From positions 1 through 44,105 of the IMG/VR virus record IMGVR_UViG_3300047319_001335: a stretch of 44,105 nt of DNA. One strand, given 5' to 3'. Below the pieces are notes generated by a model. That model was not told where the DNA came from. It did no database searches and saw nothing but the letters and a program-made list of their open reading frames with translations. Positions 247-35,995 of the stretch are shown piece by piece (position 1 is the first letter of the stretch; every line of letters starts with the position of its first letter). Source of the DNA: a virus. A program made the position numbers and the translations under genes.

Positions 247-1361
247 CGACGGTCCGAGACCTCGAGGGCAACGTCTCAGAGCTCGTCACCGAGGCAGAGG
301 TCGACGAGAAGATCGCCGCCGGCGGCGCCGGTCTCACCGACACCTCGCTCGCCGACTACACGGCGACGGGCGACATTCACATCGCCGGATCGGCGCAGGA
401 CGATCCGGACTGGCTCGACGGCGACGTCCACATCACCGGCGGGCAGGGCAACGCCGACCACAACGGTGGATCGGCCTACCTCGAGGGCGGGAACGCGCTG
501 AACCCGGACGGCCGTGGCTCCGGTGACGCGCACGTCGTGGGTGGAGTCGGCGAGAGCGGTCAGACGGGCGGCGAGATCATCGTCCGCGGTGGCGGCGATC
601 AAGACGGCACGGGCTACATCGCCTTCTTCACGCACGGGTCCGGCGGCAATGCTGGTGATGTCCTGAAGAGCACCGGCGACGGGCTTGGGACGATCTGGGG
701 TCCGCCAGCCGGTGGCGGCAACCCGCTCGATGGGATCGCGCTCGACGGGACGATCGGTGACCACTTCACGGAGGCGGCACTGAACGCGCGCTGGACCCGG
801 CGCGGCTTCGTCGGCGGGGCTGAGCAGTACCAGCTCGGGGCGAAGGGCACCTTCATGCGGGCTGCCCTCGCGGGGCGGGGCAACGGTGACGGCTGGCTCC
901 AGCCCGCCACGGCCGACGGCACCTACGCCTGCAAGTTCATCGCCCGCAACGGTCCGGTCGGCTTCAGCCTTGCGCTGGTCGATGCGGCCGGGTCAGGGGT
1001 CGCCCTCCAGTATTACAACGCCTCCCCCAACTCATTCAACCTCGAAACTCTGACCACCTACAGCACCTACGGCGGTACCTACGTCGAGGCGGGCTACAAC
1101 GGCGCCGCGCCCAACGTGAACCTCGTTACGCCCGACCCGACCGTCGCCGGTCGGCCGATCTGGCTTGCGGTCCGCAAGGCGGGCGGCTCCTGCTTCGCCT
1201 CGTACTCGCTCGACGGCGAGATCTGGTCGCCCGAGTCATCGGCCCTCGCGTGGGCGGGCACGATGAACCGTGTCGGCCTGCTCCTCGGCCCGCTCGGCGA
1301 TGTCGACGGCGCGAACGGGCAGGGGTTCGTCGACATCGACTGGTTCAACAAAGTCGCCTGA
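243..1361 (+). CDS. Glycine-rich beta-structured appendage protein with lectin-like C-terminus
   Basis: 372 residues. Residues about 40-130 are repeated Gly/Asp-rich strands (DIHIAGSAQ, DVHITGGQG, SAYLEGGNA, DAHVVGGVG, EIIVRGGGD), suggesting a beta-roll or beta-helix shaft. Residues about 175-372 resemble the concanavalin A-like jelly-roll (DUF1349/glucanase-like) found at the ends of phage fibres: alternating strands, SYSLDGEIW, and a final VDIDWFNKVA. Lying just before the connector genes, it may be a head fibre, decoration or adsorption protein binding surface glycans; that role is inferred. The ATG overlaps the previous stop and has an upstream GGAAGG ribosome site. The stop overlaps the next start as TGATG. 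Confidence 0.7.
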   Translation: MTTVRDLEGNVSELVTEAEVDEKIAAGGAGLTDTSLADYTATGDIHIAGSAQDDPDWLDGDVHITGGQGNADHNGGSAYLEGGNALNPDGRGSGDAHVVGGVGESGQTGGEIIVRGGGDQDGTGYIAFFTHGSGGNAGDVLKSTGDGLGTIWGPPAGGGNPLDGIALDGTIGDHFTEAALNARWTRRGFVGGAEQYQLGAKGTFMRAALAGRGNGDGWLQPATADGTYACKFIARNGPVGFSLALVDAAGSGVALQYYNASPNSFNLETLTTYSTYGGTYVEAGYNGAAPNVNLVTPDPTVAGRPIWLAVRKAGGSCFASYSLDGEIWSPESSALAWAGTMNRVGLLLGPLGDVDGANGQGFVDIDWFNKVA

Positions 1362-1789
1362 TGGCCCAGCCGTTCTTCAGCGCGGCCGAGGTCGCTGCGC
1401 TGGAGCAAGTCGCTCTCACCGGTATGCAGACCGACATCTCGATCAGCGCATCGACGCCGACTGACTCGGGCGGCATCTCGGCGAGCAACGACTACGGCGA
1501 CGACGTCGTCACCTACCCGGTCGTCACGGATCCCGCGAACCCCTCGAACCCCCTGATCGTCAAGGCGTGGCTGTGGCAGCAGCCGACGCCCGTGGCGGTC
1601 GCCGACACCGATCAGATCGTGACCGTGAACACGGTCCGGATGTACGTGCCGCTGGGGACGCCGGTCAAGGTCGGCGACACCGTCCACGTGGTGAACGACC
1701 CCAACGCGATCGACTACGTCGTGGCCGACACGAACGCCGAGATCACGTGGAAGGCGTGGCTCACCTGCTCCCTGCGGGAGCTCGAATGA
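1361..1789 (+). CDS. Putative head-tail connector / head closure protein
   Basis: 142 residues starting at the ATG that shares its A with the upstream stop; an in-frame start further upstream would overlap the previous gene by over 100 bases and reads as Arg-rich nonsense. The N-terminal SAAEVAALEQVAL is helical. The rest is a small beta domain (TVRMYVPLGTPVKVGDTVHV, then VADTNAEITWKAWLTCSLREL) resembling the barrel of head-closure proteins. Position between head proteins and an HK97-gp10-like gene supports a connector role. The family assignment is an inference from fold-like features and synteny. Confidence 0.6.
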   Translation: MAQPFFSAAEVAALEQVALTGMQTDISISASTPTDSGGISASNDYGDDVVTYPVVTDPANPSNPLIVKAWLWQQPTPVAVADTDQIVTVNTVRMYVPLGTPVKVGDTVHVVNDPNAIDYVVADTNAEITWKAWLTCSLRELE

Positions 1790-1790
1790 C

Positions 1791-2411
1791 GTGGTCCTCG
1801 ACGCGATCGAAGCGGCGGTACTGGGAGCGGCCCCGGGACTGCTGACGCTGGGCGCCCGCACCATCGCCGAGATCGCCCGGACCAAGGCGCCGGTTCGCCG
1901 GATCTTCGAGGGCGACACCCGGATCATCAGGACGCGCTCGGTCGGCGACGCGCAGACGCTCTCGGACCGGGTCGTGGTCGGACACACCGTCCGCTACCCG
2001 CACCTGCTGAGCCAGCGCCGCATCGTCGACGAGGGCGAGGTCATCGGGCAGGACTACCTGAGCCGCCGTGGCCGCTACGAGGTGCGGTCGGGCCGGGCCA
2101 ACTACCGCCCCCGGGGTCGCGCGACACAGGTCGGCGGCCGCCTGAAGGGCGAGATCCGCGGCGAACCGGCCACCATCGAGGGCCGGGTCGTCTCGTCTAG
2201 GGTCGTATCGCCGACGCCATACGCGAAGCATCAGGAGTTTGGGAACCGGCACAACCCGGCCCACCCCTACATGCGACCCGCGATGGCGGAGGGACGACCG
2301 GCAGTCACCAGTCAGATCACGGAGGGCCTGTTGAGCGCCGGCAATGCCGCTGCTCGAGGGGGCCAACGGGTCGCTGAGATCCGATCGAAGTTGATCGCCG
2401 AGGTGAGCTGA
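1791..2411 (+). CDS. HK97-gp10-like tail completion (neck) protein
   Basis: 206 residues from a GTG start one base after the previous stop. The best signature is near the C-terminus: TPYAKHQEFGNRHNPAHPYM followed by RPAM. This matches the pattern Y-A-x-x-x-E-F-G ... P-x-M-R-P-A of the HK97 gp10/neck family, which joins the head-tail connector to the tail terminator during assembly. The N-terminal half is Arg-rich and helical. It is followed directly by the tail terminator gene through a TGATG overlap, the usual order in siphoviruses. No catalytic motif is expected. Confidence 0.8.
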   Translation: MVLDAIEAAVLGAAPGLLTLGARTIAEIARTKAPVRRIFEGDTRIIRTRSVGDAQTLSDRVVVGHTVRYPHLLSQRRIVDEGEVIGQDYLSRRGRYEVRSGRANYRPRGRATQVGGRLKGEIRGEPATIEGRVVSSRVVSPTPYAKHQEFGNRHNPAHPYMRPAMAEGRPAVTSQITEGLLSAGNAAARGGQRVAEIRSKLIAEVS

Positions 2412-2830
2412 TGCCAGCACCAACCACCACGGCGCCGATCAAGCGCGCGTTGGTTCGTTCCCTGCGCGCGATCCCGAGCTGGGGAGCCGCCGTGCCCGGT
2501 GGTGTCCACCAGTCTCTGGCCCCGAGGAAGCAGCGTTACCCGTTCGTGACCTACAACCTGCTGCCGGCAGTCCGTGACTACCAGTTCGACGGGATGCAGC
2601 TCACGACGGACGTCGACGTCTTCGCCTACTCGGAGAACGCGGTCGACGCTGAGAACGTCGACTCGCTCATCGCCGCTCATCTTCAAGATGCACCGCTCGC
2701 GGTGGATGGGCAGGTCCTCCTCTACTGCCGGCGTGTCGCCGACGTCAGCAACCCGCAGACCGACGCGCGGGGCCGACGCATTTACCAGATCGGCGGGACG
2801 TACCGGATCACCACCGACCAGAACCTCTAA
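2411..2830 (+). CDS. Putative tail terminator protein
   Basis: 139 residues. An N-terminal helix (IKRALVRSLRAIPSW) is followed by a compact alpha/beta protein with FVTYNLLP, TDVDVFAYSENAVDAENV and YQIGGTYRITTDQNL. These resemble the lambda gpU/DUF3168-type tail terminators that cap the tail tube. Position between a gp10-like completion protein and the major tail protein is typical. Its TAA stop overlaps by four bases the TAG of the HNH gene coming from the other strand, so the inserted gene abuts the terminator without damaging it. Confidence 0.7.
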   Translation: MPAPTTTAPIKRALVRSLRAIPSWGAAVPGGVHQSLAPRKQRYPFVTYNLLPAVRDYQFDGMQLTTDVDVFAYSENAVDAENVDSLIAAHLQDAPLAVDGQVLLYCRRVADVSNPQTDARGRRIYQIGGTYRITTDQNL

Positions 2831-3309
2831 GTCACGCTCTTCCACGAGCGACCGCTCACGGCCTGTCGGACAGCCTGATGGCTGACCCCGTACTTGCGGC
2901 CGAGGACGGTGAAGGGCACGCCGAGCGCCCGGAGCTCTCGAGCTTCACGGACCTGCTCGACGGACAGCTTGTGCCACGGGATCCGTTCCCCCTCGGTGTT
3001 CGTTCCGTCTCGCTTTCGATCCCGGTTGTTGTCGCCTTTCGTTCCGGTGCTCAGGTGCCGATCGTTGACGCAATGCCGGTTCCGACAGGAGTGGCGGAGC
3101 ACGACGCCCTTGGCGATCGGCCCGTGTTCCCAGATCCACGCGACTCGATGCGCGTCGACGGTGTTCCCGTCGAGCCAGAAGCTCCCGTAGCCGGTCTTGG
3201 GCCTGATCCCTCCCGTCCAGAGATGGCAGGTGTCGGGGCCCCCGGAGCGGTCAACGAGAGCCTCGAAGCGTTCTCGAGCGGGCGTGCGGTCGTAGACACC
3301 CTTCGGCAT
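2827..3309 (-). CDS. HNH homing endonuclease with C-terminal helix-turn-helix, antisense inside the late operon
   Basis: 160 residues, ATG start preceded by a strong AGGAGGT site. The zinc-finger HNH core lies at residues 28-95: CHLW, then AHRVAW (His54), LRHSCRNRHCVNDRHL (His73, Cys75, Cys80, Asn82, His85) and GTKGDNNRDR. Residues 117-156 form a resolvase-like helix-turn-helix (LSVEQVREARELRALGV ... VSHQAVRQAV), as often fused to HNH nucleases for DNA recognition. It is the only minus-strand gene among the late genes, filling the gap where the major tail gene would normally directly follow the terminator. It is probably a freestanding mobile endonuclease that cuts the uninterrupted allele. 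Confidence 0.88.
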   Translation of the reverse strand: MPKGVYDRTPARERFEALVDRSGGPDTCHLWTGGIRPKTGYGSFWLDGNTVDAHRVAWIWEHGPIAKGVVLRHSCRNRHCVNDRHLSTGTKGDNNRDRKRDGTNTEGERIPWHKLSVEQVREARELRALGVPFTVLGRKYGVSHQAVRQAVSGRSWKSVT

Positions 3310-20343: not shown

Positions 20344-20814
20344 TCATGGGGCTCGGCGCCAGCTTATGACCGGGATCCCGCAGGCGCGCAGGGCGCGGCA
20401 GGCAGCGGGCCCGAGGTCGAACACCCGGTTACCCCAGTAGGGACCACGGTCGGTCACCTTGGCGATGATCTGGCGGCCGCGGTAGCGCAGCTCGACGAGC
20501 GTGCCGCACGGCAGCGTCTTGTGGGCGACGGTGAGATGGACCGCATCGAGGCGTCCTCCGCAGGCCATGTGCCTTCCTAGAAACCCGTCGCCGATCCCGT
20601 ATGCACTCGCGTGAACGGTGACCCAGCGGGTGGGCAACGAGGCTCGCAGCTTCACGACGCGAGCCTGCGTCACCGACCTCAGATGGTCGGCCTTCGGTGC
20701 CACCACCGCCGGCGCTCGGCCAGACGAGCTGACCGAGGAACCACCTGAAGCTACCGGGATCGTACCGGAACCGATGGCGCCGACGCCCAGCGCGACCGCG
20801 AGCAGCCAGCTCAC
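20344..20814 (-). CDS. Secreted RlpA-like double-psi beta-barrel protein
   Basis: 156 residues from a GTG that overlaps the upstream stop (GTGA); the longer open frame lies inside other genes. A signal-like N-terminus (MSWLLAVALGVGAIGSG) is followed by a Ser/Ala linker. From about residue 66 comes an RlpA-type barrel: ASAYGIGDGFLG, MACGGRLD, TLPCGTLVELRYRGR, then KVTDRGPYWGNRVFDLG (Asp122, Asp133). In RlpA and related 3D-domain proteins this fold binds or cleaves peptidoglycan. It may be an exported cell-wall factor helping lysis or DNA entry. It is far from the tail/holin genes and on the other strand. Confidence 0.75.
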   Translation of the reverse strand: MSWLLAVALGVGAIGSGTIPVASGGSSVSSSGRAPAVVAPKADHLRSVTQARVVKLRASLPTRWVTVHASAYGIGDGFLGRHMACGGRLDAVHLTVAHKTLPCGTLVELRYRGRQIIAKVTDRGPYWGNRVFDLGPAACRALRACGIPVISWRRAP

Positions 20815-21074
20815 GACTCTCGGTACAACAGGTCGCCGATGTTGGCGACGTGGTAGGTCCCATCGTCGAGCCAGCGCACCAGCGCCATGCCCTCGACGGA
20901 CCCCGCCGGCGACCCGACGAACCACTTCAGGACGATCGCGTCGTGGACGAGCTCAGGCCGGCTGCCGGAGCTGGGGGTGAGCCGGGGCCCGCCCGACTCG
21001 TAGTGCTTCACGGGCTCGCCCTCGGGGGTGCTGAGCAGCTCGCCCATGACCGGTTCAGTCTGCGGCTGGTCCAT
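20811..21074 (-). CDS. Hypothetical protein
   Basis: 87 residues. A polar N-terminus is followed by a beta-like region (HDAIVLKWFVGSP, MALVRWLDDGTYHVANIGD). It overlaps the upstream gene by 20 bases and its stop overlaps the GTG of the barrel protein. No family recognised. Confidence 0.55.
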   Translation of the reverse strand: MDQPQTEPVMGELLSTPEGEPVKHYESGGPRLTPSSGSRPELVHDAIVLKWFVGSPAGSVEGMALVRWLDDGTYHVANIGDLLYRES

Positions 21075-21402: not shown

Positions 21403-21896
21403 CGCCAGCGCCGCGTGTCGAACAGGTTCAGGTCGTCGGTCGTCAGGAAGTGGGCCTTGCGGCCCCGATCGCCCGGATCGGTCAGCGGGATCTTCTTCGC
21501 AAGCCGGGAGAGGATCCACCCCCGGATCTCGAAGGTCGGCGGGGTCCCCCGGATGCACGCGACTCGGCGATCACCCGGGTCTTCCGGGGCAACCTTCCAC
21601 ATCGACGACGCTGAGTAGCGGATCTCCCACAGGGCGCCCGCGTCAGGCGCCTTGAACGTGTTGACGCCTTCGTCCCACTCGATCCCGAAGACCACACAGA
21701 ACGCGAGCTCAGCCTGCGCCCCCTGTATGTGGCGGTTTACGGAGGTGTCCTGCCCTCGTCCGGTATATGGGAAGCGAGGCTTCCGGCCGACGGACGCCTC
21801 GGCTCGTCGGCGACCGACACGCGCGCCGCGCGCCATCTGGGCTTCGTCGAGGGCAACGTAGATGCTGTCGCCTACGACCCAGACACTAGCGGCCAC
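21399..21896 (-). CDS. Hypothetical protein, possible PD-(D/E)XK-type fold
   Basis: 165 residues, GTG start overlapping the RusA-like gene by 11 bases. A helix with an early Glu (IQGAQAELAFCVVFGIEWD), a strand pair (ALWEIRYSASSMWKV) and the ending FEIRGWILSRLAKK resemble a phage family that I associate with a restriction-endonuclease-like fold. The usual Asp ... Glu-x-Lys triad cannot be shown convincingly here. It lies next to a resolvase, which fits a nucleic-acid role. Confidence 0.5.
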   Translation of the reverse strand: MAASVWVVGDSIYVALDEAQMARGARVGRRRAEASVGRKPRFPYTGRGQDTSVNRHIQGAQAELAFCVVFGIEWDEGVNTFKAPDAGALWEIRYSASSMWKVAPEDPGDRRVACIRGTPPTFEIRGWILSRLAKKIPLTDPGDRGRKAHFLTTDDLNLFDTRRWR

Positions 21897-22296
21897 AGCA
21901 CGCGCAGGGCACGAACGCCCCGATCCCCAGCCACACCCGTGGTCTCTGCATGTCGAGCTCCTTGCTGATTGCCGTGGGGTAGAACCGCGAGTCGTCGACC
22001 CCGAGCGCGACCTTGAGCGCGTCGTCGACGATCTTCATGACGTTGTCGAAGTCCATGTCGCGGGAGAGGTAGAGCCGGTAGTCGACCCTGATCCGCTCCG
22101 GTGGGATCCACCCTGACGGTCGGGCGGTCCTGATGACCGGGATGGCGCCGTCGATGTACGCCTTGACGTGTGCGTTCTTCGCGATCCGGGAGTACGGGAC
22201 GTTGCCCCCGTCCTTGCCTCGTCGGTAGCCCCGCTGGATCTCGTTCTCGTTGCCGCTGGCCGGCTGACCGAGGATCACGACGGGCCACATGCTCAT
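21886..22296 (-). CDS. RusA-like Holliday junction resolvase
   Basis: 136 residues. The signature is RDMDFDNVMKIVDDAL ... GVDDSRFYPTAISKE: paired aspartates (Asp82, Asp84), Asn85, Lys88 and a second Asp-Asp at 101-102, the arrangement of the RusA active site that binds Mg and cuts four-way junctions. Length matches RusA (about 120-140). It would resolve branched DNA made by the annealing protein and exonuclease encoded upstream. The ATG overlaps the preceding stop. The C-terminal CACC may add a metal or disulphide. Confidence 0.83.
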   Translation of the reverse strand: MSMWPVVILGQPASGNENEIQRGYRRGKDGGNVPYSRIAKNAHVKAYIDGAIPVIRTARPSGWIPPERIRVDYRLYLSRDMDFDNVMKIVDDALKVALGVDDSRFYPTAISKELDMQRPRVWLGIGAFVPCACCGR

Positions 22297-22818: not shown

Positions 22819-23625
22819 TCAGACGCCGACGTTCATGTCCTGCGTTCGGACCGCAGTGACCTTCTTTCGGTCCACGTACACCCCTGCATCGCCGTCGGCG
22901 ACGTAGTAGTGGGTGCCAGTGGCGCTGATGTAGCCGAGGGTGGTGTCCCTTCGCAGCGTCGTGTACGGATCGCCGCCGGGGGTCTTCTCGAGGACCGTGC
23001 CCTTGGGCAGATCGACGACCCGATGCACGGTCGTGGGGACGAGGTTCATCATCGGGTTGCCCTCCGCGTCTGGCAAGAGCTGGTCGAGGTTGATCCAGCC
23101 GCAGAGCCCGGACAGGCTCCGCATGAACGGCTCGATCGCTGATGCCGGGATCCACTCGCCGTACCCGGACAGGTCCTTGTTCAGCGGGTCCCAGACCCGG
23201 TAGTTGGGGACGACGTAGTTGCAGATCCAGATCGCGTGGTTGAAGTTGGCGCCCACCTGCTTGCGCCACTCGACGGGGATCGCCCCGTAGAAGCCATCGA
23301 CGACGAGGCCGAGCCCTGCGGTCAGCCGCGACCGGATGTCGGGCAGCGTGAGCGTCGACCACTGGAGGACCTTGACCGGGTTGGTGATGTGCTGGATGGC
23401 GACCGACACCTGCCCGAGGCTGACGCCGTCGCTGTCCTGTGGTTGGATCGCGGCCCGGATCTCCTTGCCGTCGTGGTTCTCGACGCCGTTGGTCGCGTAG
23501 TAGAGCATCCGGCCGGCCGACACATCTTGGCACGTCACATAATGGCCGTTGGCGCCGGGCGTGAAGTCATCCCCCTCCCAGTCATTCGGAGGCAGGAGTC
23601 GTCCATTCAGCGTTGGCTGAGTCAA
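22819..23625 (-). CDS. C39-like cysteine peptidase, endolysin candidate
   Basis: 268 residues; TTG start overlapping the HNH stop (TTGA). Residues about 25-165 fit a papain/C39-like peptidase: [20 protein letters not shown] (Cys32), [29 protein letters not shown] (His130) and [11 protein letters not shown] (Asp146). This is the pattern of actinophage peptidases thought to cut peptidoglycan cross-links. A small C-terminal beta domain ([16 protein letters not shown] ... [17 protein letters not shown]) looks SH3-like. No signal peptide, so release would need a holin. It is on the opposite strand from the holin candidate, which is unusual. Confidence 0.62.
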
Positions 23626-24008
23626 TTCGCGCCCTTCTTTCTATTGCAAGGCGGACATGCTGGAGCGAGGTTCTCCAGCGAATTAGACCCACCCCGCGCG
23701 AATGACACGACGTGATCGGTGGAGAGCGCGGGCATTGCGCCGCAGTACACGCAAGGCAGGAGGTGGAGACGGGCGAAGTCTTCCTTCGTTAGGGTGCCCG
23801 GGTCGACGCCCAGCGCCCGTGCCTTCTTGCGGGCGTCCCGCCATGCCTGAGCGGCTTTGACCCACGGATCGGGTCTGTGTTCGCGATGCGGATGAGCGGC
23901 GCTCCACTTCGCCCAAGTGGCCTTGACCCGATCCGGGTGCGCGGTGCGGTACCGCTGTTGTCTCTCGGCTGGGGTCAGCAGCTCTTGGCTCAGGCGGTGC
24001 CACGTCAC
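23622..24008 (-). CDS. HNH endonuclease
   Basis: 128 residues from a GTG overlapping the upstream stop (GTGA). A Lys/Arg-rich N-terminus ([20 protein letters not shown]) precedes the HNH core: PCVYCG (Cys86, Cys89), [19 protein letters not shown] (Asp98, His99, Asn109, Asn113) and CPPCNRKKG (Cys118, Cys121, Asn122). It is of the small McrA-like type that nicks DNA. It may be a mobile endonuclease. The neighbours on both sides keep overlapping junctions, so it is integrated in the operon. Confidence 0.88.
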
Positions 24009-24283
24009 AGGGTGCGTCCCTCCTCTTCGGCAAGCCGCTGCTTCTCGGCGAGCTCCCGACGATCGAGCGTCTGGATGACTGCGGCGATCAGCCCGGCGAA
24101 GAGCCCGGCCACGATCGCCAGTGCCAGCGCGAGCTGGGTGAGCTGCTCGCCGATCAGGATCGAGAGGATCCGATAGACGAGGGCGAGGATCACGAGGGTC
24201 AGGATGGCGATGCCGGCTGCGATCAGCCCGATCTCCCACGGGTCGAACCGGGGAGCTGGCGTCGGCCGGCGCTGCTGGGTCAT
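24005..24283 (-). CDS. Membrane protein with two spans and a charged tail
   Basis: 92 residues, ATG overlapping the preceding stop. Two hydrophobic segments ([20 protein letters not shown] and [19 protein letters not shown]) and a highly charged C-terminal helix ([15 protein letters not shown]). Possibly a second holin or antiholin, given the nearby peptidase candidate; this is inferred only. Confidence 0.6.
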
Positions 24284-25308: not shown

Positions 25309-26664
25309 CTACAGCGGGAGGTGTTCCCGTCCCACGATCCAGAACCCTGTCGGCTCGCGCTCGAAGCGCGGATCCTTGCTGAGTCGATCCCGGACGGAGC
25401 CCGGGTTGGCGCTCAGGTTCTCAGCGATGGTCGGGGCCTTCATGCGAGATCCCTGCAACAGCTCGAAGATCTTGTCCCCGAGGTTGGCTTCCTCGGCCGG
25501 GGTCGCCGGCTTCGCCGCTGGGGGCGCCTCGGCGTGGATGGAGGCGACGTCGGCTGGCGCGAATGCTACAGACCCGGGTTGCCATGTCATCTCGAGACCG
25601 AGCGGCGGGTGCTCGGCATCATCGTTGCGCTTGAAGTCGTAGATGGCGAGGCGGAGCCTGCCGTCGATCGGCTCCCCGGGCCGGATCTCCCACGCCGCCC
25701 GGCTGTAGTTGATCTTGTACACACTCCCGTATGGGACGCGGCCCTTCTTGCCGGCCAGCACCAGCTCCTGTTTCGACACGTGATCCACAATCAGTGTGGA
25801 TACCTGCCCGAGGTACCGGATCCCCTCGAAGAGCTTCAGTGCTCCCTCGTTGGCATCGCCGTAGTCGCCCTGATGGCCGATCGCCTGCGCCGCGGAGTCG
25901 ATCACGACGTAGACGATCTTGTGCTCGGCCACGAACGCCGAGAGCTCCTCGGCATCGTCGGCGAGCGGCTTGTTCTGGCGCCGGTAGTAGATCCCCCGCG
26001 GCACCTCGATCTCCATGCCCGCGCAGATCGAGACGATCCGCCGGTTGACCTTCTGGCGGCTGGTCTCCCAGTCGAGGTACAGGACGGGCCCCTTCGCGTG
26101 CTGGGTGGTGCCGGGCAACAGCTCCCGGCCGGCGGCGACCGCGATCGCCAGCGTCAGCGCGATCAGGCTCTTGCCCGAGCCACCGGGCCCGTACAGGAGA
26201 CCCGGCTCGTTCAGCGGGCTGAGGGGCGCCACCGCGTACTGCGGCGCCGACCAGTCGATGGCGTCGTGCCCGATCTCGGTGATCGGGTCGCCCTCGGCCG
26301 AGATCGCCATGATCCTGACCGCGAGCTCGTCGAGCCAGTTGACCCAGTCGACGCGGACCCCGGGTGTCCGGGCGTGGAGCAGCTCCGCCAGCTTGGCCCG
26401 GGCCGGCGCGCTCGTGATGTTCGTGCGGCTGCCGTGCAGGATCCCGTCGACCGTCTTCACGCCCTCGATCCGGCAGCGGACGAGGATGTCGGCCGTGATC
26501 TCGTCCGAGCGTCGCTTCAGCCGGGTGAGCCGGATGGAGGTGGACGCCTCGTCGATCCGCAGGAGGTAGCCGAGCCCCTTGCGCGAGAATTCGGTGCGCT
26601 GGGGCGGCAGCGGCGGCTCCTGCGGTGCCGGAGCCTCGGTCTTGGTGGCTGTTCGCGCCGTCAC
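25309..26664 (-). CDS. RepA-like hexameric DNA helicase / AAA ATPase
   Basis: 451 residues, GTG start overlapping the previous stop. A RecA-fold ATPase: Walker A LLYGPGGSGKSLIAL (Lys165), Walker B KIVYVVIDSAAQA (Asp256), a DWET segment near 198-201 and LIVDHVSKQE farther on. This matches the AAA_25/RepA family of ring helicases used by plasmids and phages. The C-terminal 60 residues form a winged-helix-like part (APTIAENLSANPGSVRDRLS, DPRFE). It lies directly downstream of the primase gene and a small zinc-finger gene, so it is probably the replicative helicase. Confidence 0.8.
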   Translation of the reverse strand: MTARTATKTEAPAPQEPPLPPQRTEFSRKGLGYLLRIDEASTSIRLTRLKRRSDEITADILVRCRIEGVKTVDGILHGSRTNITSAPARAKLAELLHARTPGVRVDWVNWLDELAVRIMAISAEGDPITEIGHDAIDWSAPQYAVAPLSPLNEPGLLYGPGGSGKSLIALTLAIAVAAGRELLPGTTQHAKGPVLYLDWETSRQKVNRRIVSICAGMEIEVPRGIYYRRQNKPLADDAEELSAFVAEHKIVYVVIDSAAQAIGHQGDYGDANEGALKLFEGIRYLGQVSTLIVDHVSKQELVLAGKKGRVPYGSVYKINYSRAAWEIRPGEPIDGRLRLAIYDFKRNDDAEHPPLGLEMTWQPGSVAFAPADVASIHAEAPPAAKPATPAEEANLGDKIFELLQGSRMKAPTIAENLSANPGSVRDRLSKDPRFEREPTGFWIVGREHLPL

Positions 26665-27044
26665 CTCGCAGGCTCGCGCCGGGGCTTTGCGGGTGGCTGG
26701 AGCTGGTGGCGCTTGGTCTTGTTCGACCAGTAGTCGTCGCCGAGCTGGGTCACGCGCAGCTCACGCTGGCGCGCCTTCGTCTTGCGGCGTGCCTTGATCA
26801 TCTCGGCCGCCTCGATCCGTGATCTGACACCCGGGTACGGGCGTCCAACGGCGCGCCCGAATTCGTCGAGCACTAACCGGGAACCGGGGACATCCAGACC
26901 GATCGACTCGCCCTTGGCGTCGACCTCGCGGCCGGTGCGACAGACCACGAACGGGTACCGATCGTCGAGCAGGAGGAAGTCAGGCTGGAGCGGTCGCTCG
27001 CGGCCACAGTGGGTGCAGTACCAACGAACGGCCGGTTCAGTCAT
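26661..27044 (-). CDS. Small zinc-binding, basic protein next to primase and helicase
   Basis: 127 residues. It begins with RWYCTHCGRERPLQP, a CxxC knuckle, with another Cys at FVVCRTGRE, and ends in a very basic tail (KARRKTKARQRELRVTQLGD, then RHQLQPPAKPRREPAR). It overlaps both neighbours by four bases (primase upstream, helicase downstream). It is likely to bind nucleic acid; a helicase-loading or primer-handling role is a guess from position. Confidence 0.6.
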   Translation of the reverse strand: MTEPAVRWYCTHCGRERPLQPDFLLLDDRYPFVVCRTGREVDAKGESIGLDVPGSRLVLDEFGRAVGRPYPGVRSRIEAAEMIKARRKTKARQRELRVTQLGDDYWSNKTKRHQLQPPAKPRREPAR

Positions 27045-28075
27045 GATGCGCGCGTGCGAGACGCCGGCGCGTACTTCGTGAGCTCGAAGGTTCCGCGGCC
27101 ACGGCCGTCGTTGTTCAGGATGCAGCCGGGCCCGTGGCAGATCGCGCGCCGGTCATCGCGGGTAATGGACAGGGAAGGGTGCTGGTCGTCATGAGCCGGG
27201 CACTTCACGGCGATCCCCGGGCGAGCGTTCTGCACGCCCCACAGGTCGCGCAGGATCTCCGACGCAGACGCGTTCTCAAACTCGTCGGGTCCCCGCGGTG
27301 GCTTCGGCCTGTCCATGTCGCGCGGCAGGTGCCGGGGGTCTACGAGTGGGACGTAGTCGGTGGCGATCTCGACGATCTTGGCCCTCGGAGTCGTCAGGAG
27401 ATGGAGGAGGTTCTCGCCCAGCGAGGTCCCTTCCAGCGGGCTGGGGCCCCACGGGTAGACGAGCGAGTACCGCTTGCCCGTCTTCGGGTGCGGCATCGTC
27501 GGCATCCGCAGCGCGTGCCCGAGGGCGCCTTCTGCGAGCTGGTCGGCCCCGGGGCGGAGCTCGACGCGCGCGTCATCGACCCAGCGGCCCGCCTCGGCGT
27601 CGTAGACCCGTGGTACGCCTGCCTTCTCGATGAAGAACCGCATCATCCGGCGGAGGACCTTCGCGGGGACCTGTTCGTCGACTGAGCCCCACAGGTGGGC
27701 GCCCCGCCGGCTCGCCTCGACGTAGCAGTGGATGCCGGCGTCGACCATGAGCGCGCCGATCTTCATCGCCCAGTCGTGGCCGTCGTCGAGGTCGAGGTCG
27801 ATCGCGAACACGTGGCTCACGCCACCGGGCGCGATCAGGTAGCAGGAGACCGACGGGCCCCTCTTCGTCAGGCCGTCGAGGATGACCTGTGGAGTCAGCG
27901 GATCCCGGGCGTAGACGCGCGCGTCACGGGGCCCGCTCCAGCGGCCGGCAGGCTGCCAGCGGGGCTCGTCGCCCTTCAGGATCTTGGGGTCGGTGACCCA
28001 GTGGCTGTACACGTCGGCGCGCGGCGCGAACAGTGCGATGTAATACGAGGCGACCTGCTCCGGGTCGTAGGACAT
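27041..28075 (-). CDS. PrimPol-like (archaeo-eukaryotic type) primase with C-terminal CHC2-like zinc finger
   Basis: 344 residues; ATG after GGAGAGGGAC. The catalytic signature of archaeo-eukaryotic primases is present: HVFAIDLDLDDGHD (Asp93, Asp95) then VEASRRGAHLWGSV (Ser122 to His127), and a later VELRPGADQ strand. Residues 292-318 are a DnaG-style CHC2 finger (CPAHDDQHPSLSI ... ICHGPGC: Cys292, His295, Cys313, Cys318) placed at the C-terminus rather than at the N-terminus as in DnaG. It would make primers for the neighbouring ring helicase. The fold call rests on motifs only. Confidence 0.78.
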   Translation of the reverse strand: MSYDPEQVASYYIALFAPRADVYSHWVTDPKILKGDEPRWQPAGRWSGPRDARVYARDPLTPQVILDGLTKRGPSVSCYLIAPGGVSHVFAIDLDLDDGHDWAMKIGALMVDAGIHCYVEASRRGAHLWGSVDEQVPAKVLRRMMRFFIEKAGVPRVYDAEAGRWVDDARVELRPGADQLAEGALGHALRMPTMPHPKTGKRYSLVYPWGPSPLEGTSLGENLLHLLTTPRAKIVEIATDYVPLVDPRHLPRDMDRPKPPRGPDEFENASASEILRDLWGVQNARPGIAVKCPAHDDQHPSLSITRDDRRAICHGPGCILNNDGRGRGTFELTKYAPASRTRAS

Positions 28076-28326: not shown

Positions 28327-29289
28327 CTAGCCGATGGGCTGGTCCCCAAGCTCCTCTGGCGGTTCCTCGTCGGCTCGTTCATCGGCTCCATCGTCTGGGG
28401 CCTCGCCGCCGGCGTCTGTGTCGGCATCCTTGACCTCGTCGCCCTGATCCCCTGTCTCTTCGGACAGCGTGCGGATCAGGATACCGACCTGCTCGCCCCT
28501 CATGGACTGGACAAAGTTGAGGATCTCGCCCTGCTTGGTCGGATCGACGGTGTCGGTCTTGACCTTGAGGATCCGCTCGATGAACGCCAGCACGTCCGGC
28601 GTCTTCATCTTGGCGGCGGTGAACAGGCGCCACAGCTCCCGGATCTGGACGGGCGTCGGCACGCTGGACTTGCCGCCACGGCTCTGGCCGCGGGTGCTCT
28701 GGCGGCCGCTGACACGCGCCCCCTCGACGGCCTCGCCCTCGGCGGCGCGCTGGTCGACCTTCTCGTCGCCCTCGGGGTCGTCGCCCGTCGACACGAGGAA
28801 GGTCTTGAACAGGAAGTATTTCTCGGCCCCGGTGCAGGCCTTGTAGAAGCCCTTGTCGCCGGTGTCCTGCCCGGTGCCGTACCACTCGGTGACGCCCTCG
28901 GACCACATGTCGCCGGTGTCGCCGTTGACCCACGTGAAGCGGATCTTCACGGTGGTCAGCCAGTTGGTGCCGCCACGCTGGGTCTGGCCTTGCGCCTCGA
29001 CCTTGTAGTCGAGGACGGTCTGGTGCAGGAACAGGTGCTCCCGGGCCATCAGCGGGCGGATCCGCTCGACGAGGTCCGACTCCCGGACGAACGAGTAATT
29101 CTGGGCGCGGTTCCTGCCGAGCTTCGGGACGCTGCCGACCTCGGCGAGCACCGCCACGAGCTTCAGGGTGATGGACTCGGGCGGAGCGACGGCCTTGTCC
29201 CCGATGGGCGGGACCTCGGCTGGCTTCTCCGCAGCCTCTGCTGGCGCCGCAGCGGGCTCCTCAGCGGGCTTGGCGGTTCTAGGTGGCAC
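28327..29289 (-). CDS. ERF-family single-strand annealing protein
   Basis: 320 residues from GTG at 29289 (GAGGAGGGG upstream); the longer open frame enters the nuclease gene. After an Ala/Pro/Glu-rich leader, residues about 35-170 carry the ERF pattern: KLVAVLAEVGSVPKLGRNRA, QNYSFVRESDLVERIRPLMA, then VTEWYGTGQDTGDKGFYKAC, TGAEKYFLFKTFLVSTGDDP. ERF proteins anneal single strands exposed by a phage exonuclease; the partner nuclease is the next gene upstream. The C-terminal third is a helical segment and an acidic tail, possibly for SSB-like contacts. Confidence 0.85.
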   Translation of the reverse strand: MPPRTAKPAEEPAAAPAEAAEKPAEVPPIGDKAVAPPESITLKLVAVLAEVGSVPKLGRNRAQNYSFVRESDLVERIRPLMAREHLFLHQTVLDYKVEAQGQTQRGGTNWLTTVKIRFTWVNGDTGDMWSEGVTEWYGTGQDTGDKGFYKACTGAEKYFLFKTFLVSTGDDPEGDEKVDQRAAEGEAVEGARVSGRQSTRGQSRGGKSSVPTPVQIRELWRLFTAAKMKTPDVLAFIERILKVKTDTVDPTKQGEILNFVQSMRGEQVGILIRTLSEETGDQGDEVKDADTDAGGEAPDDGADERADEEPPEELGDQPIG

Positions 29290-29300
29290 TGGACCCCTCC

Positions 29301-30125
29301 TCAATTGCCGAGATGCTGCTGGAACCGCTGGTACGGCCCACAGATGGCCTGATGCGGGCAGGCGGCGCAGGTGAAGGCACCTGACAGCCCGAGCGGCTCG
29401 AACCGGCCGGCGTCGATGCCCTCGGCCGCCTGCTCGAGCTGCGCTGCGAACCAGTCGACGTCGGTCGCCGACGGCGGGTCGATGTACTCCGGCCAGTAGT
29501 AGGGCTCCTTCGTCCGCACGATGTAGTCGAGGACGAGGAGGTTCGGCATCCGGCCGGCGATCACGTGCTCGACGCCGAGCGCGTAGCCGATCATGTTGAG
29601 CCGGTACTTGCCGGGGCGCGGCCGGCTGTGGGTGACCTTGGTGTCCCGGAGAATGAGCTGGGCGCGCCACGGGTCGAGGTCCTCGGGGTCAGCCAGCGCG
29701 TCGAGGCGGTCGATCGCGCCCGAGTAGCCGATCCCGTTGACCTCGATCTCGAAGGCCTCCTCGACCTTGCTGATCTGAGGCGCCTCGTCGACGGACGCGA
29801 GCACGCGCAGGTAGGTGGTCAGCGCCTTGAGCCCGGACTCCCGGCCGTCCTCGACGGTGCCGTCGTCCTTGGCGAGCTTCACGGGCCCGGCCGCGAGCTC
29901 GATGTCGAACGCCCGGTGGTAGATCCGCTCGACGTCAGGTGTCGGGTCGACGGCGCCCTCGGCGAGGTGCTTGAGGACCTTCTCGATCGCCTCGTGGACC
30001 GCAGCGCCGATCACCTTCTTGAGGCTGGTCTCGCCCCGCTCGGCGAGCACGTAGCTGAAGTACCACTGGAGCGGGCAGTCGAGGTAGACGTTGAGCGAGC
30101 TGGCGGACAGGACGACGTCGGTCAC
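29301..30125 (-). CDS. Cas4/RecB-like PD-(D/E)XK exonuclease with probable Fe-S cluster
   Basis: 274 residues, GTG start. Motifs: SSLNVYLDCPLQWYF (Cys17), IGAAVHEAIEKV (His44), YSGAIDRLDAL (Asp139), LILRDTKVTH (Asp161, Lys163) and the C-terminal CAACPHQAIC (Cys253, Cys256, Cys262). One N-terminal and three C-terminal cysteines are the Fe-S ligand pattern of Cas4/AddB-type nucleases, and the His-Asp-Asp-Lys set is the catalytic core. It would resect double-strand ends to feed the ERF protein encoded 11 bases downstream. No helicase domain is fused. Confidence 0.87.
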   Translation of the reverse strand: MTDVVLSASSLNVYLDCPLQWYFSYVLAERGETSLKKVIGAAVHEAIEKVLKHLAEGAVDPTPDVERIYHRAFDIELAAGPVKLAKDDGTVEDGRESGLKALTTYLRVLASVDEAPQISKVEEAFEIEVNGIGYSGAIDRLDALADPEDLDPWRAQLILRDTKVTHSRPRPGKYRLNMIGYALGVEHVIAGRMPNLLVLDYIVRTKEPYYWPEYIDPPSATDVDWFAAQLEQAAEGIDAGRFEPLGLSGAFTCAACPHQAICGPYQRFQQHLGN

Positions 30126-31802: not shown

Positions 31803-33236
31803 CTACGCCAGCTCGTGCTGCGCGAGCGCGGTCCTGTCGAGCTCGAGCTTGGCGCGGGTGACCGCGACGTACTCCAGTCGGAGGGCCGGCTTGTTCTCGG
31901 TCTTGACCGCGGTGAAGTCCTCGCCGATCTGGACGGTGTCCCACTCCCGGCCCTTGGCCTTGTGGGCGGTCGAGATGATCAGCTCGGCGCTGGCTTCGCT
32001 CGTCATCCGGGCCACCGAGGCGCGGATCTCGGCGGTGCCGAATTCGTCGACGAGCTTGACCATCAGGCGCAGGTCCTCGCCGTCCTCGTCCATCGCCGCG
32101 TAGGCCTGAACGTCCTCCCAGCTTGAGAAGCAGGCGAGGTCGGGATGGCTGGTGTGGCCGCTGGTCTTGAGGTCGTCGACCGCCCGCGCGAAGCGGTCGA
32201 GGTCGTCGCCGCCGCCCATGACGTAGCAGCGGATCCCGTCGTCCTGCGCCCGGAGGAGCCGGCTCATGACGACGGCGTTGGTGCGGGCGAGAACCGCCCG
32301 GGGCCGCTCGATGCGACCGACACGGGAAGTGATCGCCGGATTGCCACGGAGGCGGAGCGGGGCGTCGAGACGGCCGAGCACCTCGTTGGCGACATCGGCG
32401 ACGGCCTGCCCGAAGCGGAAGCTCTGGGTCAGGAACGTGCGGTGCCGGACGTCGACGTTCGCGAGCGCGTTGACCGCGCCCGTCCACGCGTAGATCTCCT
32501 GCTGGGAGTCGCCGACGTAGACGAGCTGGCTGTCGTGCTGGGCGCCGACGATGGCGGCCATGACCGGGTTCGCGTCCTGCGCCTCGTCGAACAGGATGTA
32601 GTCGGCGTTGATGACGGGGTCGTCGAGCTGCCACATCTTGAGGTAGTGCTCGTGCTTGAAGGGCGCCCAGCCCCGGAGCGGGTCGTGCAGGTCCTGCCAG
32701 TACGCCTCGACGAACGGCATGAGCTGCTGGCGGATCGCGTAGTTGTTCACCGGGTACTCGCCGGGCTTGTCGATGCCGTCGATGTACCGGAAGTGGTGAA
32801 GGCCGATCACCTCGTCGGCCGACTGGCAGAAGCCGAGGATCGCCTTGGTGACGACCGACGCGAGGAACGCCGCGGAGAGGTGCTTGGGGTTGCCGGCGAA
32901 GTCGACGACGTCGAGCGGCTTGAGGCCCAGACGCTGGCCGACCTCGCGGCTGGTCATCCTCATGCTGTCGCGCAGCCGGCCCTGAAACTGGTAGCCGACG
33001 GCCCGGAACGCGAGGCTGTGTGCGGTGTTCGCCGCGACCCACGTCGGCAGCTTGCCGCGGGTCTCCTCGACGATGCTCTTGTTGAACGCGACGTACTGGC
33101 CGCGCTCGTCGGGCGCGCTCTGGGCGAGCATCACGAGCGTCGAGGTCTTGCCGGTGCCGGCGCCGGCCTCGACGGCAAGGTTGCCGCCATCGGCGAACAG
33201 GTCGATCGCCTGTTGCTGCTCTTCAGTGGGCTTCAT
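31803..33236 (-). CDS. UvrD/Rep-like superfamily 1 DNA helicase
   Basis: 477 residues, shorter than cellular UvrD (about 700), as usual for phage versions. Q-motif region (TEEQQQAIDLF), Walker A VEAGAGTGKTST (Lys30), Walker B ILFDEAQDANP (217-221), motif III YVGDSQQEIYAWTGA (240-254), motif V ISTAHKAKGREWDTV and motif VI YVAVTRAKLEL are all present. It should move 3' to 5' on DNA to aid recombination or replication. The start overlaps the upstream gene by 14 bases. Confidence 0.92.
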   Translation of the reverse strand: MKPTEEQQQAIDLFADGGNLAVEAGAGTGKTSTLVMLAQSAPDERGQYVAFNKSIVEETRGKLPTWVAANTAHSLAFRAVGYQFQGRLRDSMRMTSREVGQRLGLKPLDVVDFAGNPKHLSAAFLASVVTKAILGFCQSADEVIGLHHFRYIDGIDKPGEYPVNNYAIRQQLMPFVEAYWQDLHDPLRGWAPFKHEHYLKMWQLDDPVINADYILFDEAQDANPVMAAIVGAQHDSQLVYVGDSQQEIYAWTGAVNALANVDVRHRTFLTQSFRFGQAVADVANEVLGRLDAPLRLRGNPAITSRVGRIERPRAVLARTNAVVMSRLLRAQDDGIRCYVMGGGDDLDRFARAVDDLKTSGHTSHPDLACFSSWEDVQAYAAMDEDGEDLRLMVKLVDEFGTAEIRASVARMTSEASAELIISTAHKAKGREWDTVQIGEDFTAVKTENKPALRLEYVAVTRAKLELDRTALAQHELA

Positions 33237-34703: not shown

Positions 34704-35699
34704 CTATTCCTCGTCGTCGTCGATCGCCTGTTCCGGCGGCTCTTCGTCGTCGCTGATGATCGGCTCGGGCATCAGGCCCTGTACGTCGAGGTACGTGGTG
34801 ACCTTGTCGTAGTGACGGCGGATCGCCCGGAGGGTGTCGCGGCCGTGCTGCTGGAGGGTTCGACGCTCGTTCCACATGTCGGCGTCGATGCGGGACCGGA
34901 TCTCGGGCACGATCAGCCCGTTGAGCACCGTCGGCTCGAGAGCATCCAGCTCCCAGCTCTCGAGCCCGAACCGGCGGATGTAGCCGGACGCCCGGCTGTC
35001 GGTGATCTTCGCCGGGTTGGGCGGCGGATCGTACTGGCGGATCTGGTCCATGTTGAGGGCGATCCGCTTGATGGTGAGCTGGCGAACGGAGTAGCCGTCG
35101 CCGGCGAGGAACGTGTACAGGCGGTCGGTGATGTCGCGGGTCATGTCGATCCCGGACGGGTCGTGGTCGCCGAGGTGCAGGATGGTCACCTGCTCGACGC
35201 CCTCGTCGAGGTAGCCCTCGATCCGCCGGGCGGCCGCCCAGAGCTCGGACACGCTCGTGTACCCGCGGCACGAGAAGTACGGGGCCCGGAGACCGCCGGC
35301 CGCCTGCCCGATGACGCCCACGAGGGCGTCCTTCTCGACCCAGACCTCGACGCGCTGCGGCTGGCCCTCCCAGAGCGCCATCGTGTACATGTTCGGGTCG
35401 ATGACGTCGGCCGGGTCGGTCATGTAGCCGTCGCCGCCGCGGATGTTCCGGGTGCGATCGGTGATGTAGTCCCAGTCGAATTCGCCGGCCATTCGCGCGT
35501 CGTTCAGGATCGAGCCGAGACGCTTGTACTCGGTGTCCTTGTTCGCGATCCAGCCCCGGCTGACAAACTGGTAGTAGAGCTGCCGGAGCGTCAGGTCGTA
35601 GCCCTGATCCCGGTAGCTCTCTGCGATGGCGGTGGCCTTCTCGATCACGTCCATGTGGGCGGGCGTGAAGACCTTGGGCGTGTACTCGATGAGCGGCAT
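34704..35699 (-). CDS. Spo11/topoisomerase VI A-subunit-like protein with TOPRIM domain
   Basis: 331 residues from ATG at 35699 (TGATG overlap); an ATG at 35711 is possible. Residues about 36-52 (LTLRQLYYQFVSRGWI) match the winged-helix region that carries the catalytic Tyr in topo VI-A (Tyr42/Tyr43). A TOPRIM domain follows: VEVWVEKDALVGVI (Glu122), YFSCRGYTSVSELW, then ILHLGDHDPSGIDMTRDI (Asp178, Asp180). GYIRRFGLESWELDALEP follows the fold. No B subunit (GHKL ATPase) is visible here, so it may act alone as a nuclease or with a host partner. Confidence 0.75.
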   Translation of the reverse strand: MPLIEYTPKVFTPAHMDVIEKATAIAESYRDQGYDLTLRQLYYQFVSRGWIANKDTEYKRLGSILNDARMAGEFDWDYITDRTRNIRGGDGYMTDPADVIDPNMYTMALWEGQPQRVEVWVEKDALVGVIGQAAGGLRAPYFSCRGYTSVSELWAAARRIEGYLDEGVEQVTILHLGDHDPSGIDMTRDITDRLYTFLAGDGYSVRQLTIKRIALNMDQIRQYDPPPNPAKITDSRASGYIRRFGLESWELDALEPTVLNGLIVPEIRSRIDADMWNERRTLQQHGRDTLRAIRRHYDKVTTYLDVQGLMPEPIISDDEEPPEQAIDDDEE

Positions 35700-35995
35700 C
35701 AGCGACGCCATGCCTCCCACTGGTCGACACGCCCGGCGAGAGCCATCGACAGGTAGTTGGGACACGCGCAACGCGTGCAGGGGCCGACCTCGTTGAGCCA
35801 CATGACGATGCCGGGGACCATGCGCCCAGTGTGGTGCTGCACGATCGTGTGGCCGCATGTCGCGCACGTGTACTGCGGGCCGGGTTGGGACTGGATCCCG
35901 AGCAGTCCGCCGGCCGTCTGGAGGCCGATCGTCATCAGCCACCCGGCAAGCGCCATGAGGCCGACGAACCCGACGATGACGAGGATGGCGTCCAT
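35699..35995 (-). CDS. Membrane protein with zinc-finger-like C-terminus
   Basis: 98 residues. An N-terminal span (ILVIVGFVGLMALAGWLMTI) is followed by a Cys/His segment, YTCATCGHTIVQHHTGRM and GPCTRCACPNYL, likely a zinc ribbon facing the cytoplasm. Both ends share TGATG overlaps with neighbours. Function unknown. Confidence 0.62.
   Translation of the reverse strand: MDAILVIVGFVGLMALAGWLMTIGLQTAGGLLGIQSQPGPQYTCATCGHTIVQHHTGRMVPGIVMWLNEVGPCTRCACPNYLSMALAGRVDQWEAWRR

Follow-up and report, generated by a model that had tools for sequence, protein, structure and literature searches.

An IMG/VR virus contig encodes a 344-residue protein in which an AEP domain of the CRISPR-associated Prim-Pol (CAPP) and TOTE type is followed by a C-terminal finger with the predicted fold of the DnaG zinc-binding domain, and a gene for a RepA-like helicase lies downstream. 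We propose tentatively, with somewhat less than even confidence, that this AEP-ZnF protein represents a separate family of phage primases, with a DnaG-type finger that has been grafted behind a CAPP-type AEP domain and faces RepA, the finger being a portable priming module exchanged between unrelated primase superfamilies. Primases of the bacterial (Toprim/DnaG) and archaeo-eukaryotic (AEP) types solve one problem without being homologous. A zinc domain serving both catalytic folds would, if real, mean that template or primer-end recognition is transferable between primase superfamilies.

The window analysed here is the whole 44,105-nt stretch at positions 1 to 44,105 of IMG/VR virus record IMGVR_UViG_3300047319_001335, a contig that may be incomplete or a fragment. 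A preliminary description had given the exact coordinates of the open reading frame; the gene lies on the minus strand (28075..27041), and the corresponding plus-strand frame is not open. It belongs to the following minus-strand gene run:

29301..30125, minus strand, PD-(D/E)XK exonuclease (PF12705, 3.3e-20)
28327..29670, minus strand, ERF-type single-strand annealing protein (PF04404, 1.9e-8; phrog_155, 1.6e-25)
27041..28075, minus strand, AEP-ZnF gene, 344 aa; start codon ATG with GGAGAGG ahead
26661..27044, minus strand, p127 (127 aa), which has a basic tail and a CTHC pair, between the primase and RepA genes
25309..26664, minus strand, RepA-like helicase (AAA_25), 451 aa (PF13481, 2e-21); its start overlaps the p127 stop (GTGA)

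The real start of the ERF gene probably lies inside the ORF as listed. No family above cut-off was found for p127 in Pfam or phrog searches. Its gene overlaps both neighbours by 4 bases (ATGA at the primase stop, GTGA at the helicase start), which suggests coupled translation of the primase, p127 and RepA genes. Besides ERF and the exonuclease, the replication and recombination neighbours include a UvrD/Rep-type SF1 helicase (31803-33236, minus strand; phrog_1967, E 2.4e-86) and a topoisomerase-like 412-aa ORF (34704-35942, minus strand) that lacks a Pfam match and matches phrog_6247 ‘DNA topoisomerase’ at E 1.3e-96. Also on the minus strand, each above its Pfam cut-off, are a DPBB lytic transglycosylase (20344-20925), a RusA-type resolvase (21886-22296) and an HNH endonuclease (23622-24239).

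Within the protein we delineated the features below; D93 and D95 in IDLDLDDG, the SRRGAHLWG stretch and C292, H295, C313 and C318 stand where they had previously been placed:

27344..28075, minus strand, AEP (CAPP/TOTE-type Prim-Pol) domain, about residues 1-244 (Pfam PF22548, structure and profile)
27791..27799, minus strand, AEP motif I, D93-x-D95 (in IDLDLDDG), aligned with CAPP D177/D179
27689..27712, minus strand, AEP motif II, SRRGAHLW with H127, equivalent to CAPP H226
27560..27562, minus strand, AEP motif III, E172, equivalent to CAPP E260
27287..27343, minus strand, low-confidence linker, residues 245-263 (pLDDT below 50)
27068..27271, minus strand, DnaG-like zinc-binding domain, about residues 269-336 (model pLDDT 93; DnaG structural matches)
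27122..27202, minus strand, predicted zinc ligands C292-x2-H295-x17-C313-x4-C318, invariant in 17/17 sequences

The AEP superfamily is defined by motifs I (DxD/E), II (sxH) and III (hD/E) (PMC5862659). D93, D95, H127 and E172 are invariant in all 17 aligned sequences. The Pfam AEP-TOTE model (PF22548) scores 37.8 bits against the protein, above its curated cut-off of 27, and matches 15 of the 17 family members at E ≤ 1. Searched as a single sequence against the PDB, the window protein found its best AEP match at only E 0.86; a profile of 17 relatives reached the Marinitoga CAPP 7nqd at E 2.6e-19. The AlphaFold2 model of the full-length 344-aa protein (mean pLDDT 86) aligns with CAPP 7nqe at Z 23.1 (VIA-align; rmsd 2.6, 203 residues), and all other structures among those listed, NHEJ polymerases included, reach Z 11.4 or less, with PriS-type primases at 8.1 or less, RSF1010 RepB′ at 8.3 and human PrimPol at 7.4. 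The structural matches of this model span the AEP part only. On the combined evidence of sequence and modelled fold, in which motifs, Pfam match and structure agree, membership of the N-terminal half in the AEP superfamily is secure, as the preliminary description had supposed in calling that half PrimPol-like. In CAPP itself, the D177A and D179A double mutant is inactive (PMC8211822) and E260 touches the 2′-OH of the initiating nucleotide together with a metal (PMC10345425). Pfam searches gave no Toprim match in the 344-aa protein at E ≤ 1; Toprim_2 likewise had no match in the window record, the same search being positive in control genomes.

Scanning IMG/VR with patterns from the AEP motifs only, by way of an alignment of the AEP part, yielded 17 loci on 16 contigs. 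Because that alignment was built partly from loci found with a finger pattern and matches had to resemble the window AEP, fingerless relatives at greater distance may have escaped the scan. The C-terminal finger is kept in all 16 loci uncut by a contig end, and in all 16 a RepA-like gene lies downstream on the same strand; at the 17th, L011, the contig ends inside the AEP domain. A chance finger is rejected on the invariance seen in this AEP-only sample. Across all collected loci, 34 of 35 ORFs matching the AEP profile (a count that includes many repeats of the same contigs) also match the finger profile, the cut L011 being the exception, and a separate neighbourhood comparison placed RepA downstream in 13 of 15 loci, the exceptions being L064 and L079. 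An alignment of eight sequences of the RepA-like helicase has RSF1010 RepA (1g8y) as its best PDB match at E 1.8e-10, the next standing at 9e-4, which bears out the earlier identification of this neighbour.

All four zinc ligands, like all four catalytic residues, are invariant in the 17 full-length sequences. The 16 relatives are 29-53% identical to the window protein, and their AEP parts are pairwise at most 61% identical, save for the two copies on one contig. Pairwise distances over the 17 sets correlate between AEP and finger (r 0.52), AEP and RepA (r 0.63) and finger and RepA (r 0.47; permutation p 0.0002 or less), a pattern of sequence divergence that fits joint inheritance of the three rather than repeated grafting. 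The contig with two copies, IMGVR_UViG_3300028802_000007 (131 kb), carries an exonuclease-ERF-AEP/finger-RepA-HNH module at about 94-105 kb (L098) and again at 19-29 kb (L110), 81% alike in the AEP part; the pair represents either related elements or a join made in assembly.

Scanning with the finger pattern reported 83 stretches, of which 80 loci were examined, giving 79 in-frame ORFs. Most fingers in this pattern-found set are N-terminal; nine full-length AEP-finger ORFs (one on a contig with an identical protein) were recovered, with three more cut by contig ends. Comparison of C-terminal with N-terminal finger profiles gave a probability of 98, which we dropped as a strong argument because the N-terminal set (21 of 28 sequences, hand-picked from the 79 ORFs) had been chosen by a DNA pattern that fixes the ligands. 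Outside the family, tblastn of the window protein against named phages returned ten records at E 0.2-0.9, matched in finger regions only; the annotation there is primase, primase/helicase, topoisomerase-primase or Toprim-like in eight, hypothetical in one and absent in one. Of two relatives searched in the same way, one had no match and the other a single finger-length stretch, and tblastn thus found no cultured phage among the named ones that encodes an AEP-ZnF protein. Plasmids gave three matches at E ≤ 0.01, confined to the AEP region, and a single scan of bacterial and archaeal genome contigs with two patterns gave none. The BFVD contains shorter phage AEP-TOTE proteins, such as that of Gordonia phage GordTnk2 (252 aa).

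The AEP-ZnF protein is probably the phage’s own replicative primase, working with RepA. Its CAPP-type AEP domain would make primers, with metals bound by D93, D95 and E172 and the incoming nucleotide by H127. The DnaG-like domain, tethered by a flexible linker (residues 245-263), most likely would grip the single-stranded template, the 5′ end of the growing primer or both, and may dock the primase on the RepA-like helicase encoded downstream; RepA would unwind, docking would couple priming to unwinding, and a polymerase, probably the host’s, would extend the primer. There are precedents for both partnerships: human PrimPol needs its C-terminal finger, which binds zinc and single-stranded DNA, for priming (PMC4027207), and the AEP primase of RSF1010 has RepA as its partner (PMC4538821). 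Because the catalytic cores of PrimPol and CAPP can prime without their C-terminal domains (reviewed in PMC10345425), the finger may be accessory or only stimulatory. CAPPs are also polymerases (PMC8211822), and searches that were positive in control genomes found no PolA, PolB or PolIII-alpha match in the window record, both of which would suit an AEP domain that is the phage’s main DNA polymerase, or that reprimes in lesion bypass, and not a maker of short primers. We consider that role unlikely: the missing polymerase gene is little proof because the record may be incomplete, the finger is invariant, as in enzymes that use a finger for priming, and the constant RepA neighbour fits a primosome.

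Modelled by itself from the 17 sequences (pLDDT 93, 76 residues), the finger gave DnaG of Bacillus stearothermophilus (zinc-binding domain) as its first Foldseek match, at E of only 0.43. On re-alignment to 85 chains, the DnaG domains 1d0q (Z 5.3, rmsd 3.1, 66 residues aligned) and 2au3 (Z 5.0, rmsd 3.4, 66 residues aligned) were the only ones to reach Z 2 or more; human PrimPol and UL52 zinc fingers are absent among the structural matches, an absence that carries no weight against them. A sequence search of the PDB gave 1d0q as the sole match at E ≤ 10 (E 1.5). Pfam CHC2 (PF01807) scores 11.9 bits on the whole protein and 14.2 on the finger alone, both below the cut-off of 24.9, and we therefore call the finger DnaG-like in fold rather than a PF01807 member. 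The model supports a fold of the DnaG zinc-binding type, with a Z of 5 being modest, and to that extent the CHC2-like finger described earlier holds.

It is decidedly improbable, in our view, that the finger is instead of the PrimPol/UL52 type and the protein a true phage PrimPol. Such a finger would occupy the same position, C-terminal to the AEP domain, and the second ligand pair, CX4C, is that of human PrimPol (C446-x4-C451). The spacing in all 17 sequences is CX2H, then 17-18 residues (18 in two members), then CX4C. DnaG CHC2 fingers have CX2C as their last pair. The first pair, CX2H, is nevertheless that of DnaG and not CX6H, and the histidine-to-cysteine spacing of 17 agrees with 1d0q rather than with the 19 of PrimPol. 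Profile searches point the same way, the DnaG CHC2 model matching 8 of 17 fingers at E ≤ 1 (best 0.0018) against none for the UL52 family, with the reservation that HMMER filters drop weak matches (two further models match 2 and 1 of 17). The structural matches are DnaG domains, and motif I reads DxD, not DxE. A DnaG-like finger on a replicative primase remains our preferred reading. That the protein is a phage-borne TOTE-type conflict or CRISPR-adaptation enzyme and not a replication protein is very improbable: its best Pfam model takes its name from TOTE conflict systems and its best structural match is CAPP, but the NCBIfam CAPP type A1 model (NF040561) scores 27 bits against an equivalog cut-off of 200, Cas1 (the only Cas gene sought) had no match in the window record by a search positive in control genomes, and the neighbours are replication and recombination genes.

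The preliminary description had presented the finger as lying at the wrong end of the protein. Position cannot be the novelty, since C-terminal CHC2 fingers on AEPs are already published: PrimPol, its trypanosome relatives and UL52 have C-terminal fingers (PMC4027207, PMC3898837, PMC4538821), and the Zn-binding domain of PrimQH also follows the AEP (PMC5862659). The term ‘domain-swapped’ is apt for the type of finger, which is DnaG-like, and fails for its position. A CAPP-type AEP joined to a DnaG-like finger seems unreported in the literature searched, a limited paper collection represented partly by excerpts; CHC2, AEP, primase and phage were not found together there, and AEP with CHC2 appeared in PrimPol papers only. 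We regard the AEP-ZnF family as a variant of viral AEP primases, and its novelty as modest.

Two further loci bear on the portability of the finger. At L079, an ORF (2073-2906, minus strand) encodes a weakly matched Toprim-like domain (E 0.005, below cut-off) and then a C-terminal finger, to which the AEP-family finger profile gives E 5.3e-17, against 6.2e-8 at best for N-terminal fingers; a RepA-like AAA_25 gene (913-2370, minus strand) follows. L079 thus has the mirror-image combination, with a finger of the AEP-family type behind a Toprim-like domain. The search found no second full-length relative of it, and we do not claim that it shares a RepA lineage with the AEP-ZnF family (BLASTP against the RepA of L087, E 0.82). 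At L064, an ORF (618-1448, minus strand) combines a PF09250 Prim-Pol domain (68.9 bits) with a C-terminal CHC2 finger that passes the Pfam threshold (32.7 against 24.9), apparently an independent joining of AEP and CHC2. Together these cases, a single locus each, point to a finger that can move between primase folds. The AEP-ZnF protein is small (344 aa) and its finger is separable, which would make it possible to ask directly whether a DnaG-like finger plays an equivalent part when attached to an AEP domain. PMC8211822 proposes that CRISPR-associated Prim-Pols derive from CAPP-like ones of phages, and the AEP-ZnF family is a candidate relative.

Among known systems, the CAPP_A structures (7nqd, 7nqe, 7nqf and 7p9j) have the AEP fold and catalytic residues in common with the window protein. 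CAPP-like genes are already known from bacteriophages, for example a Gordonia phage, and those outside CRISPR contexts include fusions to a helicase or PriCT (PMC8211822). MpCAPP is composed of TPR, AEP and PriCT with conserved cysteines, whereas the window protein begins with its AEP domain and continues into a DnaG-like finger, and Cas1 had no match in the window record. Human PrimPol and the trypanosome PrimPol-like (PPL) proteins have a C-terminal ‘CHC2’ UL52-like finger (PMC4027207, PMC3898837) and herpesvirus UL52 a C-terminal zinc finger (PMC4538821), the same order of AEP and finger as in the window protein. Human PrimPol differs in its ligands, CX6HX19CX4C (C419, H426, C446, C451) against CX2HX17CX4C, in its DxE motif I against DxD, and in its AEP structure (Z 7.4, against 23 for CAPP). 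PrimQH/PrimPol-PV1 proteins consist of an AEP domain, a Zn-binding domain or PriCT, a helicase (RepA among them) and a winged helix (PMC5862659), an AEP-finger-helicase order like that of the window locus, but fused in one protein where the window has two genes; the window AEP matches AEP-TOTE/CAPP and was compared with PrimQH by domain order only. Phage Toprim primases and primase-helicases carry a homologous-looking finger, but at the N terminus: Microbacterium phage GardenState gp45 and L003 have Toprim domains, and L004, which we read from its sequence as also carrying Toprim, has an AAA_25 helicase domain as well. RSF1010, with RepB′ and RepA, resembles the window locus in keeping AEP primase and RepA helicase as separate proteins, although its AEP domain is a distant one (Z 8.3).
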